A stretch of DNA of 64,000 bases from contig NC_045139.1 of the NCBI RefSeq assembly GCF_008831285.2, positions 35,251,706 to 35,315,705 on the forward strand, written 5' to 3'. Source of the stretch: Nymphaea colorata. Its lineage: Eukaryota; Streptophyta; Magnoliopsida; Nymphaeales; Nymphaeaceae. Positions 3,557 to 33,376 of this stretch are shown piece by piece; position 1 is the stretch's first letter, and each line of letters opens with the position of its first letter. A model generated the notes under the pieces. The model was not told the DNA's origin and searched no databases. It saw nothing but the letters and a program-made list of their open reading frames with translations. The position numbers were made by a program, and so were the translations under genes.

Positions 3557-3616
<60 letters not shown>
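3557..3616. repeat. (AT)n microsatellite, about 60 bp
   Basis: An uninterrupted alternating AT tract lies between TTGTTTT and GAATTAAATGG. Confidence 0.95.
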
Positions 3617-3619
<3 letters not shown>

Positions 3620-3760
3620 TTAAATGGTAACAGGTAGGGTCAGCCCACCTACCACCCGCGGACCATTATCTTGCTTGAGAAGAATTATCCAAATCATGAG
3701 CCAAGTCAATGTTTTTTTTTTTCTCAGGTCATCGCAAAAATCAGGTGACTTGGTGGTAGG

Positions 3761-3965
3761 GGTGGAGCCACATGAGAGCATGTGTGGGCAATTGCCCACA
3801 CAGTATTCCACCAAACTGTTTATTTACATATTAGTTGACCCAGCATATTTGTGTATTTTTTATGCTAGTGCCCTTTAGTCATTTACCTTTTTACATATAG
3901 TGACTTTGGAGGGTCCAGAATTTTTTGAATGATCACTTCTTCGGCCACAACTTTCTGGCTCCACC
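3761..3965. mobile_element. Short element flanked by GGTGGAGCCA / TGGCTCCACC arms
   Basis: GGTGGAGCCA at 3761-3770 has its exact inverse, TGGCTCCACC, at 3956-3965. Inside are a GGGCAATTGCCC palindrome and an AT-rich spacer. Similar GGCTCCACC / GGGCAAxTGCCC words recur near 49810, 56538-56790 and 58100-58680. I infer one dispersed non-coding repeat family, or remnants of the ends of a larger element. No open frame of note is present. Confidence 0.5.
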
Positions 3966-19818: not shown

Positions 19819-22800
19819 CAATGTTGTACGTATCGTACGATAAAACGATACGATACACCCCCCGTATCGTAAAAAGGGGGTGTATCGGCCCTGTATCGCA
19901 CGATACAAGGCCCGTATCGTACGATACGGCCTAAAAACGCAAAAAGGGGCCGAGACCTACTTATTCGGCTTCTTTTTCAAATTTTTCTTCCGTTCTTCAT
20001 TTCTAACGCTTGGATAGTGCCGTGAGGGAGGGCGATCGTTCATTTTCACCGTGAAAAACTTAATTTTCATCGTCAAATCGAAGATTAAGTGGTCGATTTG
20101 TGCGTGGGTGCTTGATTTTCGTGGGAAGGAAAGGGGTTTTCTTCATTTCAGACATTTCTTCTTCGTAAGGTATGAAATCTCATGTTCTTACCATGTATTC
20201 TTAAATTTTTACCGTATAATCGTAATTTTGAAGACTTTGAGTGTTTTTCATTAAGTTTACCATAGGATTTCGTTTTTTTTTTTTTAAGATATGGATCCTA
20301 CATGGCAATGGTGCGAAAGGGTGAAGGAGAATAACCGTTTGAAACTCAAATGTGGCTTCTGTGGGAATACACTTTCAGGAGGGATTATTAGAATGAAACA
20401 CCATTTGGCAGGGACCTCCAAAGATGCGTCTCCTTGTGTTGGAGGACCAAACAAACCTTTGCCTCCATTTGTGCGTCAACAATGTTTAGATATGCTTCAT
20501 GCTTTACGTCAAAAGAGAATACAAAAAAAAATTGAAGATGCATATGTAGGCTATAATGTGCCTTTGGAAGATGAAGAAGAAGCTTATGAATGTGATGATG
20601 AAGACGATAGCAGTCTAAGAACAGATTTGGAGACCTCAAGAGGTAGAGATCGTAGAGGAAAAGGGATTATGTATGAAGGAGGTCGATTTGGCATAACATG
20701 AAGGAAGAGGAAAGGCATAAACAGATGTTAGGGCCAGGCGTGGTATGCGACCACCTAGTGGTAGAGTTCCTACTGGTAGGTCTAGTGTTGGTTCTATTAG
20801 GAGTTTTTTCCCTTCATATACCAGCCCAGGTGGTCAGCCGCAGATTCGTGCTGCTATGACATCTAAAGATATGCTATATCATGCACAAAAGCAGGTAGGG
20901 AAATAGTTTTATGATGCATGTATTTCATTCAATGCAGCTAATTCTTTTCAATTCCAAGCCATGGCAGATGCAATTGTTTCTATAGGCCCCGGATTCAAAA
21001 TGTCATCATATCATCAGTTGAGGGGTAAAATTCTTCAGGATACAGTCAAAGAAGTGTCTGAGCATTGCGATGAGTTGAAATTATGTTGGAAGGAAACAGG
21101 TTGCTCCATTATGTTAGATGGTTGGACTGATACAAGGTCAAGAACACTTGCTTCAGGATAAAGGTACAATGTTCTTGAAATCTCTTGACTTGTCTGATGT
21201 TCCTAAGACTGCTGAGATTTTATTCAATGTTTTTTATAATGTCGTACAAGAAGTTGGACCTGCAAACATTATACAGTTTATTACAGATAATGCTGCAAAT
21301 TATAGAGCTGCAGGAGATTTATTATTTCAAAAGTATAGAACATTTTATTGGAGTCCATGTGTCACTCATTGTGTTCATCTAATGCTTCAAGATCTTAATG
21401 AGATGCATGATATGAAATCAGCCATTGACCAATGTCAAGAAGTAACAAAATTTATCTATAATCATGCATATGTATTGAGTTTGATGAGAAAATTTACAAA
21501 AGGAGTTGAATTAATACGACCTACACAAACTAGATTTGCCACAAATGTATTGACTGTGCAGAGTGTGGTGAAACAAAGAACTCCTTTGAGACAGATGTTT
21601 GATAGTGAAGAATGGGCTGCATATTCACATGCTCATAAAAGAAATGTTTCTTTAGTTGTGGATATTATATTCAATAACGTATTTTGGGAATCATGTGTGA
21701 AGCTATTGAAGGTTTGTGTTCCATTAGTTAAGGTTCTCAGGTTGGCTGACAGCGAGGACAGACCTTCTATAAGGTACTTATATGAGGCATTGGACAAAGC
21801 AAAAGAGGTAATTCGAGACAACTTAAAGGAAAAGAAAAAGTTATATATGCCCATATGGAAGATTATAGATAAAAGGTGGACTGGACAGTTTCATCAACCT
21901 CTTTATGCAGCAGCTTATTATCTAGATCCTGCAATTATATTTTCTCCTACATTTAAGAAGGACAGAGAAGTCATGCATGGTTTGTTAGATTGTATTAATG
22001 TGTTAGTGGAAGATTCTACAGAACAAGATGCTCTGCACAATGAGTTTGATCTATATGATAGTTGTTTTCGGAACATGGGACTACCTGCCGCCGTTCGAGC
22101 TAGGACAACTATGCGTCCACGTAAATACATAGAAATTTTTAATTTACTTTGCATTTGTTACATTTGATTCTTTTAAAACTTTCACATTGATTTGTTATAT
22201 TTTTGTTTAGATTTGTGATGGAATAGGTATGGGTTTGATTGTCTAAACCTAGCACGTTTTGCAGTCAAAGTCCTCAGCCAGACATGCAGTGCTAGTGGAT
22301 GCGAAAGGAACTGGAGTGTGTTCCAACATATCCATAGAAAAAAAAGGAATAGGCTCGAACATAAAAGGTTGAATGACCTTGTCTTTGTTCGATATAATAT
22401 GAGGTTGAAACAAAGGTAATATAGGCATATAGCTTAATTAATGTTTACATTTTTTGTACAATATATTTATATGAAAGTATATACTAACAAATTTTCTCTT
22501 ATTTAATGTAGAGAATTAGAAAAATCATTAGCAAGGAAGCACACATCTCAGTTCGATCCTATCAGCTTGGAAAATTTTGACGATCTAGAGTCATGGATTG
22601 AAGAAGAACCAACTACAATATTTGATGATGAAGATCTTGAATGCTTCAACCTTGAAGTTGAAGCAACAGAAGGCTTTGTTGATGAAGGAGAGTCTGCTAC
22701 TGCTGGTGCTGAATATGTTGGTGAAGATCTTTCAATTCTTGACGATGAAGATGAAGAAGAAGAAGAAGATGAAGATGATGAAGATTATGAATGATGAATC

Positions 22801-23165
22801 ATGAATGAGAGTCAAGTCAAGAGTGCTTGATTGAATGTTTTAGCATTTATGACTTTATCACTTTATGGCATTATGCTTTGTTGAATGATATTGTATTATT
22901 GTTATGAATTTTAATGTTTATGAATGATGAACTCATAAGTTTATAGCAATAATAAGTCTATCGTTATCTCAAACATGTTTTCTATGAACAATTTATTATT
23001 TTTAATTTTTTTTGAATTTTTTATGAATTTTTTGAATTTTTTTAAATTTTTTCTGATTTATTAATAATTTTTTAAAAAAATTTACGATACGATTACGATA
23101 CGTTACGATACGGCGTATCTTAAAGCCCGACCGATACGGCTTACGATACACGTTTTACAACATTG
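19819..23165 (+). mobile_element. hAT-superfamily DNA transposon, nearly complete but decayed
   Basis: The ends CAATGTTGTA (19819-19828) and TACAACATTG (23156-23165) are inverted copies. The flanks are ATTGTGGT (19811-19818) and ATTGTGGC (23166-23173), an 8-bp target duplication with one mismatch. CAATG fits the hAT terminal pattern. Both subterminal regions are dense in CGTATCG / CGATACG words (19829-19935 and 23083-23155), probably transposase-binding repeats. The 3,347-bp body encodes a DUF659/hAT-dimerisation transposase in the + direction, broken by stops and a deletion. It sits about 460 bp beyond the stop codon of the CYSTM gene, in convergent orientation. Confidence 0.92.
20291..22794 (+). 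pseudogene. hAT transposase pseudogene (BED finger, DUF659, hAT dimerisation)
   Basis: The ATG at 20291 opens a BED-type zinc finger (C21, C24, H37/H38, C49), with a TGA after 136 codons at 20699. The reading resumes in another frame as a serine-rich linker and then FYDACISFNAAN, but a TAG at about 20908 falls where these proteins usually have an aromatic residue. The DUF659 core continues from 20961 through LDGWTD and breaks near 21160, where a stretch is missing. It resumes at about 21170-22120 with ITDNAANYRAAGDLL and the central RNase H-like region. After a likely intron (about 22121-22211) the dimerisation region reads CERNWSVFQHIHRKKRNRL. A second intron, 22416-22511, joins in frame to an acidic Asp/Glu tail ending at 22794. 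At least three lesions make it non-functional. Confidence 0.88.
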
Positions 23166-23624
23166 ATTGTGGCATATACGGCCCCCCAATGAACTGAAAC
23201 AATAGCTAGATTGATACCTCTAGACAAACATCTTCGAGCCAGTGTGGACGTTCATGAACTGCAGTTTTCCATGACAAAGTATGTGAAAAATTGAAGACAA
23301 CCAAAGCCCAGTCTAATTAATATGGACAAGTAACATTAATTCATTAAATAATAATTCATTAAATAAAAGAAACAGGACAGCCGCTCAACAACCCAACAAA
23401 ATGCATGAACAAATACGTAATATTAAACAGCAGGACAGCCAGTTTATCAACACAAATGAAGAATAATTACATTTGCTTGTCACAACCTCCTATGCACGAA
23501 GGACCAACTAAATACATCTTCCGTTTCACCTATGCAAAGCATGACAATCCGATGACGCTAAATGGCATGGAGATAATCGAGAGAAAACCACATTCATTAT
23601 GACGTCTGCATGCTTGAAAGTCAC
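23166..23624. other. Gap between the hAT element and the CYSTM stop; probable CYSTM 3' UTR
   Basis: After the target duplication there is about 450 bp of AT-rich DNA without a gene. Reading on the minus strand it lies directly 3' of the CYSTM stop, so the 3' UTR and polyadenylation site should fall here. Confidence 0.5.
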
Positions 23625-26600
23625 CTAAAAGCAGCAGTCCTCGAGAAGACAGCAACAGCAAAGGGCTGCCAAACTGCAACAAGAGAATGTACAACAAGCA
23701 TTAGAAGCAGAACTCTAATAGAAAGAACTGCTCTAATAGAAAGAACTGCTGCAGGTAAAGCTGGTGCTACTTTATTCACATCTGACGTTTCCCTTTTTGT
23801 TGCAGCAGTGAAAAACAATGCCATGCATATATGAAATGTTGATTACCTATAAAATTCTGCATCAGAGACACTTAGGGCACCACATGTTTTGAGACCAAGA
23901 AGAGGTGCTTATGAGACGGTTTTTATCAGGACATAAATACATTGTTTCGACATTTTTAAATTTCTGACATGTACAAAAATTTGTGAAGAAAACGCATATT
24001 CAACAGTGTCACAACACGAAGTTCAAGAACCTCAATAGCAGGTTATGAGAAACACAAATCCTATATGTTTTATTTGTTTAATAGATTCTCAATTCATATC
24101 TCCATGTGCAAAGGATTCAGACATCCATGGACAAACATCAAGCATTTGAATCATTTGGATAAAGTGATGCTCGCCACTTAAATGCATAAATTCGAGGTCT
24201 GAAAAGACAAGAAAACAGATTCTTCATGGGTGAAAGGAAGGATCGAAGACATTAGAATATAAAAGAAATATATTGGAAACACAATTTACAGTAGCAACAT
24301 TATACCAACTATGGTTCCAAGAAACGACTTGAGATTTACATATTTCTGCCTGGAGTAACCACAGGTTAAATTACATTAGATGAATAACAGATCAACAGTG
24401 ACAAAACGAATCCCTAATCCTCAAGATAGATTTGGAGATTGAATCAATAGTCAAATTTGATCCCACCACAAACTCAATCTCTTGGGTCCCAGATTCAAAA
24501 TATCATGGATCTACTAAAGCCTGTCTGAGTGGCTTACAAGAATTAGGAACCTTCACGGAGCCAACCAATTTAAAACAACTCATTCCACTTCTTTGTGCAA
24601 TGACCGTTTTGGCCACTAGTATACTTATTGCACCTAGCTGCAATGAGGCATAGTTGGCAGTTTGGCACCCGACATGTGATGAGTGTAATACCATTGCGGG
24701 CAAGATACTAGATTATTTACCATGAGATTGCAGGAATCAAATCGCTACTGCCACTCTCAGGATTGATATGTTTCGAGTAAGACAAGTGATGTGTCTTTCT
24801 TATTAGTCATATCCATACCAAAGAGGAGGTATGGAAGTGCTTCCTCGAAAGAAAACAACACATTCTGTTCTCTTATAATTTCACCAGCCAAGAAGTGATG
24901 TCTAACGAAGTAACTATGTTGTGAACATGAGCCATTTTCTTATGGGAATGAGCAAAAACAGATACTTTCTAAACTTTAATTTCGACTAAATCCACCATAA
25001 GGAAGCATATTTTAGAATGGAGAGGAAGGTGACGGGTGCTAAACAATAAGATTTTCGGATCTTCCATCTAGATCCAAAATCCAGCACGTTGAACAATGTC
25101 TCACGTCATTCTATGTCCTTGTATTTTACGTTCTTGTAAACTGTGTTGGGTATTCTATGTCCTTGTGATATGTGAGAAGTCTCCTAGGATTCTGTGATTG
25201 AAGAGTCTCTTAGGATTCAGCAATAATATGGGCCATGTAGACCATCCTGGTCAAGGCATCTTCTCCTTAGCCTCTCTCTCTGTCTCATTCTCTCTCTCTA
25301 TCTTCCTGCATGAATATAGATTTTTAGTTACACATATTGGTACCAGATTTCTATCAAAGGGTCTAATACCACCATATGTAAAACAGGCACCAGTTATTTT
25401 CTAGAAGCTTTTGTCCCTCTTTTCACTTAATTGCTATATCATTCACATTGCATGCATGACTGAACCAACATGAATTCTTGCCTGACCCGCATATATTTTA
25501 TGTTTCCACTTGCCACCAATTCACTGCATAATGACCAGAACAGGGTAGGCCCAAACGTCCAGGGATTTCCTTGCAAAACATTCCATCTTACCATCTTAAT
25601 GTCCACTTCCCTCCATAAGAAGCATGATCACTTTACAGCCAACAGCAACCCAGTTTTAACCAGAAGCTTGTAGTTCTACAGCAGTGGCTGGTTCTTAGGA
25701 AGCAAACATTCCTGGAAGCCTCAGTGGCCAGAAGATAGCATATTTTGCCACTGCTATGTCACGAACCAGTTGATGGTCTTAACGTGATCTGCAGCATGCT
25801 TTTTGACTAGAAAACCAATTTTGTCAAAATTGAAAGTCACATACAGGTCATCCAAGAGGTAAAAAAGACTAATCCGGATTAGCTGGTCCAACTCAGTCCA
25901 AGTCAATTGACTTTAAGTCTTTAACTACATAATTCATATATTTATGCATACATTTACATGAAAATAATACAGAAACATATACATCTATATAAAGGATGCA
26001 CATGTATACTTATAGATCAGAGATTAATAAGTTGATCGATGATGGAGCTGACTTACTGACTAGTCTGACCAACTAGTCATGGGTTTGAAACACAACTTAG
26101 AGGGATTTTGATAACGGAGCTAGAAGGCCTCATGAATCTTAAGGAAAACGCACACAAATAACTTAATCTGACTTCATAAAAACTGAAGAGTCTCCCAGTT
26201 AAGATGGCAGGCACCCAAACGAATCCAAATTTGTCTAGCTCCTTACAAACCAAAACCTACAAAGTTACTTGGATTCAGACCTTGAATTCACTACCCTGCC
26301 ATTAAATTATCCAGACGTATCTGGTCATAGCTAGAACACATCCACAAATCAATCCTACTGATGAAAAATTTATGAGGTCCGTGCCATTTTGTGGTTTGGA
26401 GACTACTTACTGCTCCATGAAATATTCCTCAAAGATGTACCATAATCCTAGTATTATATTTTCATAATTAACATATTATGAGACCAACATTGCTGACGTG
26501 TTGATTCAGACAAAGAGTAGGCAAACACATTGGACAAAAAGATGCCCAGGCAGAAGACCCCATGGAAAGAAGCAAGTTGATGAGTGATCAATTGATTAAA

Positions 26601-29600
26601 GGGAAGTTAAACCAAGGATAATTTCAGCCTATTGATTATTCTCTAGCTTGCTCATAGGGACGGAACATATTATATGGAAAACTGAAACAATAAATAAATA
26701 AATAAATAAAGGATGAAATTAGAAAAGATGTCATTACCACATATCTATCAAACTAGCCAACCAAATAGTGGCAGGAATATATAGTGAAAGTGGTTATATA
26801 TCTAGCTCAAAACAAAGTTCATCAGGATTATATATGTCTAAAGAAAAGGAAACATCGTAATCCAGATATACTTTTTTGAGGTCATCAGATATGAAGTGAA
26901 TAGAGAATCCATAACATTTACTGAATCACAAGTTAAACATAGATAAAGTCCAGGAAGAGTGAAGAATTACAGAACTACAAAACTGCAAACTGGGTCATCG
27001 GCCGTTAGCAATTCAAATCATTGTAATAAACTAACCTAGTCTTCCATCACTAGGCTTTTCCAGAGGAGATGCGAAGAGAATTAACAGCTCCCCTTTGTTG
27101 TCATTCATTATGCATTAATGACTGTGCCTTATGTTTCTAGAAGTATTTGGATGTGGTATTTGTAATGAGTAGATTCACGGAGGAAAGGATAGGCACTTCA
27201 AATTCTCAAAATGAGGTCCTTACTGCTGGAGCTTAATGGATACATAGAAAGAGATACCCAGATCTTCATGACATGAAATTCTAATCTTCCAAATATATAT
27301 TCACAGCATATTAAAGGATATGAGCTACATTCTGCATCTTGGAAAGAAGAATATTGGGAATGAACCAATTCATGAGATCATGAAATAAACAAAAGTATAC
27401 AACATTAATATATGATGCTGGCTTAGTAGTTAGTACTACAGTTTTCACCGGCTACCATTTTTAATGCCTCTGTTTTACATTGGTTTGAATAAAATTTGAT
27501 GCATGTGTGCTTGTTTTGCTCTCAAAACCTTTCTGACTTTCACCCTGTTTTTGAGCATTTCTGCTTGCACATGTGCAAGTCTTTGGATCTCATATTATTT
27601 TCAAGTAATAACTACTCAGTTAAACATAAGTTTGTGCATGCACATATGAGTGTCATTGCAACTAAACATATGGAGGAAATGGTAGGTTCATCTTGAGATG
27701 TTGGGCAATACGGCAAGGCAAAAACATCAAAAGCTATAATGGCTAAGAAACATTATCTGAAATGGCACTTCTTTTGATTATATCTGTTAGCAGATTTTGC
27801 AAGCAAAAAACCATGAACGCATATATGATGCATCCTGCTTTCATTCTCTGATGCCAAATGATATATGACATATTTGGTCCAAAATCATTATTGGCGTAAC
27901 TTGAAACTGGTTTGAGGGGTAACTTGGTTCTCTAGCATATTATGTGATACCAGCACAATGAAGCATTCATCATTTTCTAGCCTTTTCAAACTTTTGATAG
28001 GTCTGGTCACCTTGACCAATTAGAAACATTGGAGTTGATTGTGATGCATAACCACAGTATATTTGAGGCTTTGACACTAAATTTTGGGAGTTCTCAAAGA
28101 CAGAAATCCAGTTTTTGTTTCAGAATCCTAGGATGTGCTTTGATGTGAGGAATGGATTTTTTGCTATCAATGCAAAGGGAAGACAACATCAGGGGTCATT
28201 CTCTCGCCTAAAACTTTGTAAATAAAAATTTCATTTTGTCATCTTACTTTTTAAAGAAAATCCAGATTGCCTCCACGGACTAGCATTTGGGATGCAGAAT
28301 CTCATCAAGAATATAGACTACGTGAAGAATTTAGTCCAAATATAAACAGGAGGATCACTCCTTCAGGACTAGGGAGTTTGTTGGCTAATGCATCATTTAG
28401 CAGCTTATGTCTTGTTAGTTTGTTTCTCAGGTTCATGCACAAAGTAGTGAATGTTTTTTATATTTTTCTTGTTGCTCATGAAGATGATGCTTGATTATAG
28501 TCTTGGTTCTAGGTCCTCTATGTGGCAGCTTACTAGTTACTGTCTGTCAACGCAAAAACATATTTTGGCTTAGATAGCTGCCAAAAATACTTTATCATAT
28601 GATTTTTTTTAAATTCATCATTCTTAAAGAAAAAAAGATGAAGTCTAATTTACTATGCATTAGAATATTAAACTGCTAAAACAGTATCAATCTAAATCGA
28701 GACAATCTCTTTTCCAACCTTGATTAAAATTTCTACCCGTTTCAACTCATCTGATTCACTCTTCAAGTCATTAATATAAGATCAAGAACATATCAATAAT
28801 CAAAAGGGACAAGAAAAAGTATGGTGATGATAGAGCACAGAAAATATCATTCCTGAAGAAAGAATTGTCACAAATAAGCAACAGCACATTAAATGGATAA
28901 TGATATATCAAAAATGAAAAGAACAACAAAACCGATCATCGATAAAGCCACGCACCATCCTTCTAAAAATGAAGTATAGCTCGGCTGCCTCTGGTATTGA
29001 TAATAATAATTCTGAGGAGGGTACGGCGGAGGAGGTGGTGGATAGCCCTGGCTAAAGTAACCCTGGTAGCCTTGCTGGTAACCAGGTGGCGGTGGTGGTG
29101 GAGGCGGTGGGACTGGCTGATAACCATGGAGACATTCTTCACACGCCGGAGGAGCAGATGGATACGCCCCTTGCGGGTACCCTTTAAAGAAGCCCAATTA
29201 GTGAAGTTGAGAAATTGAATCACAACGCAATCAAGTAAATTAGAAAAAGAAAAGAATTCATGACAAACGCAAATCGACCTTCTATTCTAGAAGAAAACCC
29301 AGTTCTTCGAATCGATGCAACAACAAAACGAAAAAAAGATAAAAGGAAATAATAAGCGTTAACGTGAAAAAGGAAAGATCATATCAATCCATAGAAATGC
29401 AACCATATAGAGAAGCGAACAGAGCCCAGTTCACCAAACCGATGAAAGAACAAAACAAGACGAGGAAAAAGAAAAAGAAATTTGAGGAAACTCAACAGAA
29501 ACGCAACCTCCGTCGAACTCGACAGTATCGAATTATTCTAGCCGGCGAGACAACAAAACGGAAGGAAAATCAAAACCACATCAAAGATATGACGGCGAAT

Positions 29601-29673
29601 CGGGGGAAAAAATGAGAAATTTGAGGAGCGTACCTGGGGGAGGGTAGGCGCTGACTCTATCCTGGTAGGACAT
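23625..29673 (-). CDS. Cysteine-rich transmembrane module (CYSTM) protein, three exons, 104 aa
   Basis: Exons on the minus strand are 29634-29673, 28956-29181 and 23625-23673 (40+226+49 nt = 105 codons), all GT-AG. The start reads MSYQDRVSAYPPP. Residues 14-80 are a Pro/Tyr/Gln/Gly-rich region with GYPQG, GYQQG and GYFSQGYP repeats, nine prolines at 38-46, and an extra CxxC (C27, C30). The C-terminus is the hallmark module: FLEGCLAALCCCC (85-97), then LLEDCCF. CYSTM proteins are small, tail-anchored plasma-membrane proteins linked to stress tolerance and metal binding; role here is inferred from family. The module is split by a 5.28-kb intron inside the first module cysteine codon (TG|T at residue 89). 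A gene finder that misses the 49-nt exon would stop at 28889 and report a 110-aa protein without the cysteines. The exact frame match and perfect module make this model strong. Confidence 0.93.
23674..28955 (-). other. 5.3-kb intron 2 of the CYSTM gene
   Basis: Donor GTGCGT and acceptor TTGTTGCAG on the minus strand. It is unusually long beside the small exons. I see no nested gene: the open frames inside (for example 24432-24653, 25470-25673 and 27496-27696) are short and unrecognised. There are AT-rich patches and TAAATAAATAAA repeats near 26694-26710, but no intact transposon. If read through, it adds WCVALSMIGFVVLFIF, a hydrophobic tail, before a stop at 28889-28891. Confidence 0.85.
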
Positions 29674-31483
29674 GGACGCAGATTCTCGAGCCTCCGAGGG
29701 AGAAAAATCACGACTCACGAGAAGCCTCTCTCTCCAGAGCAGAGATCCTCCTCCCCACGCCTCCCTCTGTATCGAGTCGGAGGAGTTGGACGGGGCGAGG
29801 GAGTTGACGAAGTTTTGGGGCCGTTTGATTACTTAGAGGAGGGAGGTCTCGTCCTGGGGCCCACGCCCGCCCGTCCAGATCACGGGAACCCTTCCTCTTC
29901 TCTCCTCTTCACGCTGATTTTGCGCCGTGCTCTCATTTACTCGCACGATAAGTTGTTTCCAAACAAATAAAAGGCCTCGATTCGAAGGGATTCGATTCGG
30001 TTTGACAAGTTATTTAATATTATTTTTATTTTATTAATAATACATATATTTTATATTTAAAAATTTTTTATTTTATATTCAATTAATATTTTTATTTTGA
30101 TAAGGCCAAATTTAGGCTCGGATTTAAACATGGGGTCATCGCCCTGAGCCCGACTCTCATCGAGCTATAAGCTTGATCGATGGATTGTTAGGAAACTTAG
30201 CCGTGAGTTCTGGAAGGGCTTTGACTCATCCTGACTCACCGATTCAAGTTATTTTAAAACTCAGCCTAGTACACTAGTTAATTCCTCGAGTTAAGGAGTC
30301 AATCTATTCACGAGTTTTGCCAACTATGATTGAAGGGCATTCAAGTGTGAAGGGGGTACTCCAAGTCTACTAAAAAGGTATGATGTAACATTAGAAAGGA
30401 GGTTGGTCTGATCTTTAGATCAATAGATTTCAAATCCTAGAAATTTAAGGTCAAAGTAAATAAGAAGCAATCAAATGCTCTCTCTTAGTATCATTGTCAA
30501 TCAACCCCTTTTGCATATGCAAAACTATTAGATTAATGAATTACGGTTTATGGGAACAATTGACCCATATTTAAGCTATCGGCTAATAATAGGAAGGAGG
30601 CATTTGATTGCTCCTGATTTTAAATCATCAGGATTTAAGATCAGAATTTTCCCTTCTGATTTTTCTTAATGCAAAAAGGTAAACTAATGTTTTCATACCC
30701 AAACGTTTTCATGTTTAAGAATCCAATTGCTTATAAATTACGCTCTTCTTCCAGTTCTCTATAATACCGGTTTTCCTTTGTTTGGTTTTTTATCAAACAC
30801 CAGAAATATGAGAAATAACCTTTCTTATATCTAGTTTGTGATCTGATATTTAAGATAACCAAACATGTCTTCAGTGTCTATATAAGGCCTGATTTGAATC
30901 AATACAACATCTAGCTATAGTTTTAACTACAGTATGTCCTTTAATGTTCATTCATTCAGTGCTCATTGCATATAAAGAATTGAGTAGGGAGATAGGTACA
31001 AGAATTTAATGTCAATAGATTAGATTGACATGAAACTCACATCCGATCAAATTGCTTCAAATGAGTTCAATAAAGAAAAATTTTCACATGATCTAATTAA
31101 TAAATTGGATGGGATTTAAATTAAAAAAAAAAAAGACATTGGATCATATCAGGGTTTGGTTTTAAATAAATATTTAATTAGATTTGCGTTTGAATTCAAT
31201 TTAAAATAAATATCTATATTCGAGATCTATTCAAGCTCCATTGTTAACAAATCACAATTTGGTTTGGATACAATTTTGCATTAGAAGTCGAATTTATGTT
31301 CAAATGTAAGTTTAAAAGTCCGATTTAGTTCAAATTTGGATTGTGACTATAAGTCATATTCAAACCTGATAGAGACTTATCTTCATTATATTCGATTCGA
31401 TTTGAGTTCAAATCCAAATTTAGAAATTAAAAGAAAATGAAGGAAACGAATTTGAAAATTGACACAAGATAAGAAATCTCGAG
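29674..31483. other. Intergenic region between divergent CYSTM (-) and GEM-like (+) genes
   Basis: The first 200 bases are GC-rich and CT/GA-rich and are the likely CYSTM 5' UTR and promoter (read on the minus strand). At 30000-30170 an AT-only block beside a gggctcg-like stretch resembles the repeat at the window start. From 31110 to 31440 there are many ATTTGxATTCAAAT words of the kind found in the MITE-like family at 787-1159. No gene is seen. Confidence 0.55.
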
Positions 31484-31490: not shown

Positions 31491-31764
31491 ATCTCAGTGG
31501 AGCGGGGCAAACGTCACGCTCACAGGGAACCTTCTCCGCGTTGCTGTCCTATAGACCCTCCACGTCTTCTTCGGTGAGCCCACCGTCTACTTAATCCACC
31601 AGGCGGCCGACGCTGTTCCCTTCCCCATGAAGAAAACCGCCTCCCGAAGGAACTGCATGTCCCCCTTTCCTTTAAATCCCCCATGGCCACGCCTCCTTTG
31701 CTTAACGCAGAGCCCGCTTTCAGAATTTTTGATCTCCATTACTGATCCGCAAACTCCTTGATCG

Positions 31765-33376
31765 ATGGCTGCACAGCAGGCGGAACCCAGCGTTGGGGGA
31801 GACGAGCAGCTGCTGCATGGTGATCAGAGGTGGGGAACTCAGGTGATGGGTGCGCCGGCCGAACCCTCGGCGCACCCACAGAACCAGCAGGCCGCACACT
31901 GGGCGCCCACGGCCGGCGAGGACCTCCAGGAGCAGCAACAGCAGCAGCGGGCGCCGTACCCCTATGTGGTGCAGGCGCCGGTGCAGAAGCCCAACAGCGC
32001 CATGGACACCGCCCTTCATAAGTTCAACAAATGGAGCAAGAAGGCCGAGGCTCTCGCTTCCAATATTTGGCTCAACCGTACGTATACCACCTTAATTCCC
32101 CTCTTTTTTTCTTCTTTCGATGGCAGATGGCAGTGGCCAGACTGAGCGGAAACCAGCTGCTGCCGCCTGCCGGCAGTTTCTGTTGCTTTCTCTCGATTCC
32201 TGTTGCTTATCTTTTTGACGAAAATTAATGCATGGCAGTGAGGACGGCCCCGTCCATGTCGGAGGCAGCTTGGGGCAAGGTGAGCCTGACGACGAAGGCA
32301 TTAACCGAGGGAGGATTTGAGTCGCTGTATAAGCAGACCTTCCAGTCAGAAGCGGCCGAGAAACTGAAGAAGACGTTCGCGTGTTACCTGTCGACGTCGA
32401 CCGGTCCGGTCGCCGGAACTCTCTATCTCTCCAACGTGAAGATCGCCTTCTGTAGCGATCGCCCCCTCACCTTCACTGCTCCTTCCGGCCAGGAAGCGTG
32501 GAGCTACTACAAGGTAACATGCGTTTCCTGTTGGTTCGTAAACTGTTCGGACTCGGGCGCGCTACCCGATTAAACCTGAGTCCAATATTTGGTGTGTAAA
32601 GTAGGGCACTAGGGTAGAGTCGACAGTAACATCATGCTTTTTTGACATGTAATATTGAAAAATCACATATATATAATATGTGATGTAATGTCTATTATAA
32701 CAACATGAAGTGTTAAAAATGATATACATAGCAAAACTAGATTTGGTGTGCTGGTTGGGCACTTTTTTTCAGTGGATTATTCGACCCGATGGTTCACAAA
32801 GAGATGTTTTTAAAAATCTCTTATGAGTTTTTTTAGAACTTTTCCTGTTTTATGTATTAGTTTATAGGTTGTTTGGTTGTTAAGTTTACCATTTTTCTTA
32901 GTGTTTATCTTTGAAGGTGTGTCTCTTTCTAGTTAAATGCTGGATATATATATATATATATGATTTTTTAACAATAAATTTTTAAAAATCGTCCTATCCT
33001 GCAACATATTATAACTTTTTATCACATATTATGACTTTTTGGAGAATGTCCGACGCCCGTTTTGAATGGATTGATATCTTTCATTTTCTTTTAGCTTGTG
33101 GCGCGAATTAGTGATCGTTGCTTCAAGATTGATTTCTGGTAATCTTGCCTTCAGGTGGTGATTCCATTGGAGAAGGTGGAGCAGATCAATCCAGTGAGGT
33201 CGAACAAGGAAGCTGGAGGGGAGAGGTATATTCAGGTGACCGCCATGGACGGCCATGATTTCTGGTTCATGGGCTTCGTCAGCTATGACAAGGCCCTCAC
33301 CCATCTCCTCGACACCCGCTCTGAGTTTGCTGCTGCTGCTGCCGCCGCCGCCTCGCAGCAGACGCCGTCATCTTGA
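31765..33376 (+). CDS. GEM-like protein with GRAM domain, three exons, 269 aa
   Basis: Exons are 31765-32077, 32239-32513 and 33155-33376 (313+275+222 nt = 270 codons), all GT-AG. Residues 1-80 are a Gln/Pro/Ala-rich, probably disordered leader with QQQQQ. Residues 80-104 (MDTALHKFNKWSKKAEAL..NIWLN) and WGKVSLTTKALTEGG are typical of the GEM-like/FIP1/ABR family. The GRAM domain covers about 131-208: FESLYKQTF, then CYLSTSTGPVAGTLYLS, then KVVIPLEKVEQINP. The end is HDFWFMGFVSYDKALTHLL and a poly-Ala tail. GRAM domains bind membrane phosphoinositides; GEM in Arabidopsis represses GLABRA2 and links cell division to root-hair fate, and other members respond to ABA. Which of these applies cannot be told. 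The gene is divergent from CYSTM, 2.1 kb apart. Confidence 0.93.
32514..33154 (+). other. GEM-like intron 2
   Basis: A 641-nt AT-rich intron with a GTAACA donor and a CCTTCAG acceptor. It contains a short (TA)n near 32947-32962. No nested feature. Confidence 0.85.

Follow-up and report, generated by a model that had tools for sequence, protein, structure and literature searches.

Described CYSTM genes

CYSTM proteins are short, with an N-terminal part that is rich in proline, tyrosine and glycine and a cysteine-rich core in which a run of cysteines lies close to the C terminus. In pepper, Bs5 (Ca_CYSTM1) is described as a tail-anchored CYSTM protein of 92 amino acids encoded by three exons, and the bs5 allele carries a 6-bp deletion in the third exon that removes two transmembrane leucines (PMC10030403). 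In Arabidopsis, PCM1-PCM5 are reported at the plasma membrane and PCM6-PCM8 are nucleo-cytoplasmic, with defence effects upon overexpression (PMC8049917), and WIH genes of the CYSTM family are linked to germline formation (PMC12812228). Finally, fragments of Arabidopsis CYSTM1 (AT1G05340) labelled exon 1 and exon 3 are given in Table A1 of PMC13205671. The exon 1 fragment covers 31 nt from the ATG and ends in phase 1 (phases computed by us), and the exon 3 fragment, 46 nt long, gives xLAAMCCCCALDICF and a stop only with two bases brought in from the preceding exon. Literature searches on missed terminal exons, and on other Arabidopsis gene numbers, found nothing useful.

A predicted three-exon CYSTM gene in Nymphaea colorata

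The window, that is the whole stretch of 64,000 nt of Nymphaea colorata DNA that was analysed, carries a probable gene of this kind, which we read on the minus strand over window positions 23000-30400. Its parts are as follows (here and below, a slash marks an exon border):

29634-29673, minus strand: coding part of exon 1, 40 nt; MSYQDRVSAYPPP and the first base of a Gly codon, phase 1
29182-29633, minus strand: intron 1, 452 bp; GT-AG, phase 1
28956-29181, minus strand: exon 2, 226 nt; rich in proline, tyrosine and glycine, ending in SFLEG and then TG, the first two bases of the codon for the first module cysteine
23674-28955, minus strand: intron 2, 5,282 bp; GTGCGT...TTGTTGCAG, GT-AG, phase 2
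28889-28955, minus strand: read-through frame of intron 2 to its first stop; tail WCVALSMIGFVVLFIFDISLSI; intronic in the best reading, no CYSTM match
23625-23673, minus strand: coding part of the 3'-terminal exon, 49 nt including the TAG; T/LAALCCCCLLEDCCF and stop

Joined as 29673-29634, 29181-28956 and 23673-23625, the coding parts would give a protein of 104 amino acids ending SFLEGCLAALCCCCLLEDCCF; the full spliced translation, with each piece located exactly, is MSYQDRVSAYPPPGYPQGAYPSAPPACEECLHGYQPVPPPPPPPPPGYQQGYQGYFSQGYPPPPPPYPPQNYYYQYQRQPSYTSFLEGCLAALCCCCLLEDCCF and then the stop. This short protein has a proline/tyrosine/glycine-rich N-terminal part containing PPPGYQQGYQGYFSQGYPPPPPP, and a cysteine run near its C terminus, CLAALCCCCLLEDCCF, just before the stop.

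The observation made in an earlier note on the same DNA is confirmed. The unspliced exon-2 frame closes, as the note had it, at a stop codon ending at 28889, and splicing from the donor GGATG/GTGCGT (last exon base 28956) to the acceptor TTGTTGCAG/TTTGG (first exon base 23673) has both the coordinates and the exact phase match, in phase 2, that had been given for it. Joining the exons likewise finds the proposed division of the first module cysteine codon, TG/T, at the start of CLAALCCCC. The note's reading of this splice, that it yields a CYSTM module, is very likely right as far as the sequence allows it to be judged, and is supported because of the module results and an intron position common to the relatives described below. 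Its "49-nt exon" holds for the coding part, TAG included, and not for the exon itself, which should be longer since a last exon must also carry the 3' UTR; the 49 nt would then be the coding part of a 3'-terminal exon and no micro-exon. Within 500 nt after the stop no AATAAA was found and AATGAA occurs at three places, the nearest AATAAA past the stop lying at 23062. The splice sites and junctions given here are predictions.

The spliced protein aligns to the whole length of the Pfam CYSTM profile PF12734, columns 1-37 of its 37 (E 1.7e-4), although the score of 22.1 bits lies below the curated cut-off of 25.2. The unspliced reading has no CYSTM match in Pfam, its sole match being to PRIMA1 (E 0.098, 12.9 bits, cut-off 38.6). 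Searches of NCBIfam and of solved structures with the window gene returned nothing.

We favour, with a probability of roughly 0.94, the reading that the window holds an intact protein-coding plant CYSTM gene with a C-terminal cysteine-rich membrane anchor and one long intron. Its predicted exon anatomy, splice-site dinucleotides, phases and module, and an intron position shared with three relatives, can be read directly from the DNA. The spliceosome would remove the 452-bp and 5,282-bp introns and so restore the TG/T cysteine codon, the terminal exon would supply most of the module together with the 3' UTR, and the product, by analogy with pepper Bs5 and Arabidopsis PCM1-PCM5, may be a tail-anchored plasma-membrane protein. 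A gene model that stops at 28889 would lose the module, the terminal exon being 5.3 kb away from exon 2.

The published genes have a comparable layout. Pepper Bs5 also has three exons, with the transmembrane deletion of bs5 in the third, and differs in length, 92 amino acids as against 104 (PMC10030403). Exon 1 of the window gene ends in phase 1, as do the 31-nt Arabidopsis CYSTM1 exon 1 fragment and the first exon of one relative in the same genome, and the Arabidopsis exon 3 fragment, like exon 3 of the window gene, opens with the base that completes the module cysteine codon (PMC13205671). Taking the fragment ends as exon borders, we infer that Arabidopsis CYSTM1 has the same TG/T split; its tail, CLAAMCCCCALDICF, is one codon shorter than that of the window gene.

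Relatives in the same genome

We searched the N. colorata genome (407.8 Mb) for the start of the terminal coding part, using the pattern T followed by NTN GCN RCN NTN and four TGY codons with no acceptor demanded. This pattern occurs at four sites, the window gene included, and its reversed control at 0, while a looser pattern demanding AG found the same four sites and had one control match. GCAG stands directly before T-YTN-GCN-GCN at 4/4 of these sites, the window gene and three relatives. Both patterns are limited to members that have this core and a T at the end of the split codon, and others may exist. The shared split gives a search pattern, GCAG and then T-YTN-GCN-GCN-NTN-TGY-TGY, for such exons in other plant genomes.

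The three relatives encode proteins of 100, 93 and 77 amino acids, also with a proline/tyrosine/glycine-rich N-terminal part, and have introns of 110, 251 and 301 bp, all in phase 2, at the position of intron 2 in the window gene. The relative on C4 (C4:9763387-9763411, L012), which is possibly WIH-like, scores 48.5 bits against PF12734 and is predicted to have coding exons of 55, 202 and 46 nt separated by introns of 161 and 110 bp in phases 1 and 2. Like the window gene it thus has three coding exons, the same two phases and a CLAALCCCC tail, with the donor GGATG/GTGTGT, but its intron 2 is only 110 bp long and it ends in LLDACF without the extra cysteine. The two relatives on C3 (18480784, L010, 48.4 bits; 18514992, L011, 55.4 bits) would each have a single intron in the coding part, of 251 and 301 bp, in phase 2 and at the same place before an LAALCCCC tail; unlike the window gene, their coding part is without intron 1 and the split codon is CT/T or GT/T. 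The members of this pair lie about 34 kb apart, and with Leu or Val at the split codon they have a cysteine earlier, in GCFE.

A comparison of intron positions, which the earlier note had put forward as a check in related plants, comes out in favour of the model within this genome, the phase-2 intron being kept in three relatives from the same genome, with Arabidopsis CYSTM1 fitting by inference. This intron in the codon before LAA is present in the window gene and in the plant members compared (in Arabidopsis by the same reasoning), and it forms part of no published CYSTM definition. What finds no support is the surprise that the note implied about the layout: a short coding end sits in the last exon of every relative read, and the intron is merely longer here. 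The 5.3-kb distance reflects a single long intron in this copy, and the arrangement is not new. Most likely the window gene is an ordinary representative of a known plant family, with its intron where the relatives have theirs.

A protein search of the genome listed five places, namely exons 2 and 1 of the window gene and three weak matches (E 0.18-1.2; L014-L016) whose printed frames show no CYSTM module, and the three pattern-found relatives were absent from its list. The PF12734 search gave no match in this genome and is uninformative because its control was silent too, matching in 0/14 genomes.

Chance and conservation at the terminal exon

We then asked how far exon 3 stands out from its surroundings, scoring the tails read from sites in the required phase against that of Arabidopsis CYSTM1 exon 3 as published. 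The acceptor at 23673 scores 68 and the next of the 3,766 minus-strand AG sites 25, while the best of 3,836 AG sites on the plus strand scores 21. In 60 Markov-simulated downstream regions of the same dinucleotide make-up as the real one, AG again being required, the maxima had a mean of 22.7 (sd 4.6) and the highest was 38. When AG is not required, the best other minus-strand scores are 41, reached one codon further into the exon-3 stretch itself, and 38, at 28899. Exon 3 is thus more than a chance match, given the distance of its score from both the next site and the best simulation.

The changes within the exon are of the kind expected of coding sequence. In a count restricted to the 10 whole codons that follow the split codon, comparison of the window gene with the C4 relative shows 7 synonymous and no amino-acid-changing differences, and comparison with each C3 relative 6 synonymous and 1 amino-acid-changing; the same residue is encoded at 10 and 9 codons, respectively. 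This mostly synonymous change is as expected of a coding exon. Beyond these codons the end of the exon varies, reading EDCCF in the window gene against DACF, EACF or EACL in the relatives; the window gene has one codon more, and two residues of its exon-3 end differ from the C4 relative.

When each of the 1,626 AG sites that lie downstream of the donor is joined to it and translated, a spacing of C, CC and CC within the first 60 residues is found for two of them, 23673 and 23712, which is in frame. The latter, 39 nt upstream, might be used instead of 23673 or as well, adding 13 residues to the module, and the added stretch is in frame, without a stop and cysteine-rich. Such use is nonetheless exceedingly improbable: the site has a poor context (TTCTATTAGAG as against TTCTCTTGTTGCAG) and borders an 18-nt tandem duplication, the protein it would give finds no match in Pfam, and the GCAG of the relatives stands at the place equivalent to 23673. 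The duplication is exact, covers 23713-23748 just upstream of the exon-3 acceptor, and adjoins 23712.

Readings of the long intron

In length, intron 2 exceeds its counterparts in the three relatives 17.5- to 48-fold, and one could imagine a decaying gene in which the exons are intact and no longer joined efficiently since the intron has grown. The length itself, and the score of the protein below the Pfam cut-off, would fit such a history. However, the frames are intact, the GT-AG sites are present, exon 3 has changed mainly synonymously over its first 10 whole codons, and introns of about 5 kb are not rare in plants, so that we consider decay highly improbable and retain the reading of an intact gene. 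A repeat search of the intron that scored 40/540 first-look candidates and passed over very common words, so that other repeats may be missed, found one feature:

25031-25368, minus strand: interspersed repeat of about 340 bp, about 6% of intron 2 (intron positions 3588-3925)

At least 51 genome matches besides intron 2 itself are listed, some of them pieces of one copy, and all fall on this repeat, whose TGATAG...AGCA ends suggest a solo LTR. No border was found in seven copies with one exact 15-mer. Growth of the intron by transposons was considered; with 40 of the candidates scored, the matches listed fall on a single repeat that makes up 6% of it, and the rest of the intron need not be unique. 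Rfam at gathering scores and a tRNA scan with the bacterial code gave no match in the window.

A different possibility is that the start of intron 2 is retained and the gene ends at the 28889 stop; the product, whether the sole one or one of two isoforms, would be tail-anchored and lack the cysteine module. Its read-through tail is strongly hydrophobic, with a best 19-residue mean Kyte-Doolittle value of 2.45 against 1.68 for the spliced tail. Tails as hydrophobic as this make up 396 of 10,166 open simulated tails of intron composition (about 4%). Among the 566 open readings at GT[AG]NG sites in the window, 3 reach this level, the 28956 donor site itself probably being one of them. The read-through of the C4 relative also starts EGWCV and stays open for 33 residues, but it is weaker (1.24), and in both C3 relatives read-through meets a stop immediately, formed by the donor itself. 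Hydrophobic frames are moreover natural in T-rich introns, and intron 2 is free of the six poly(A) hexamers tried for its first 490 nt, the earliest being AATATA at 28464 and TATAAA at 28462. The read-through tail also loses the CYSTM match, and the conserved exon 3 argues for its own use. A cysteine-poor membrane-tail isoform made by intron retention is therefore weakly supported, and that the gene ends in this way is very unlikely. It is also highly doubtful that intron 2 acts as a switch, with retention or early polyadenylation leading to the cysteine-poor hydrophobic tail and splicing to the CYSTM form; were this so, the long intron would set the ratio of two membrane anchors.

Neighbouring sequence

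At 20288-22794 on the plus strand, hAT-type transposase-like sequence lies in separate frames, with Pfam matches to a BED zinc finger (21.5 bits, cut-off 20.6), to DUF659 in two pieces and to the hAT dimerisation region; the acidic frame at 22507-22794 on the plus strand had no Pfam match. Upstream and on the opposite strand from the CYSTM gene, the frame at 31762-32145 gave no match and is followed by a likely GRAM-domain gene at 32229-33376 (plus strand), in which two frames match successive parts of GRAM at 32.7 and 19.3 bits (cut-off 23.6).
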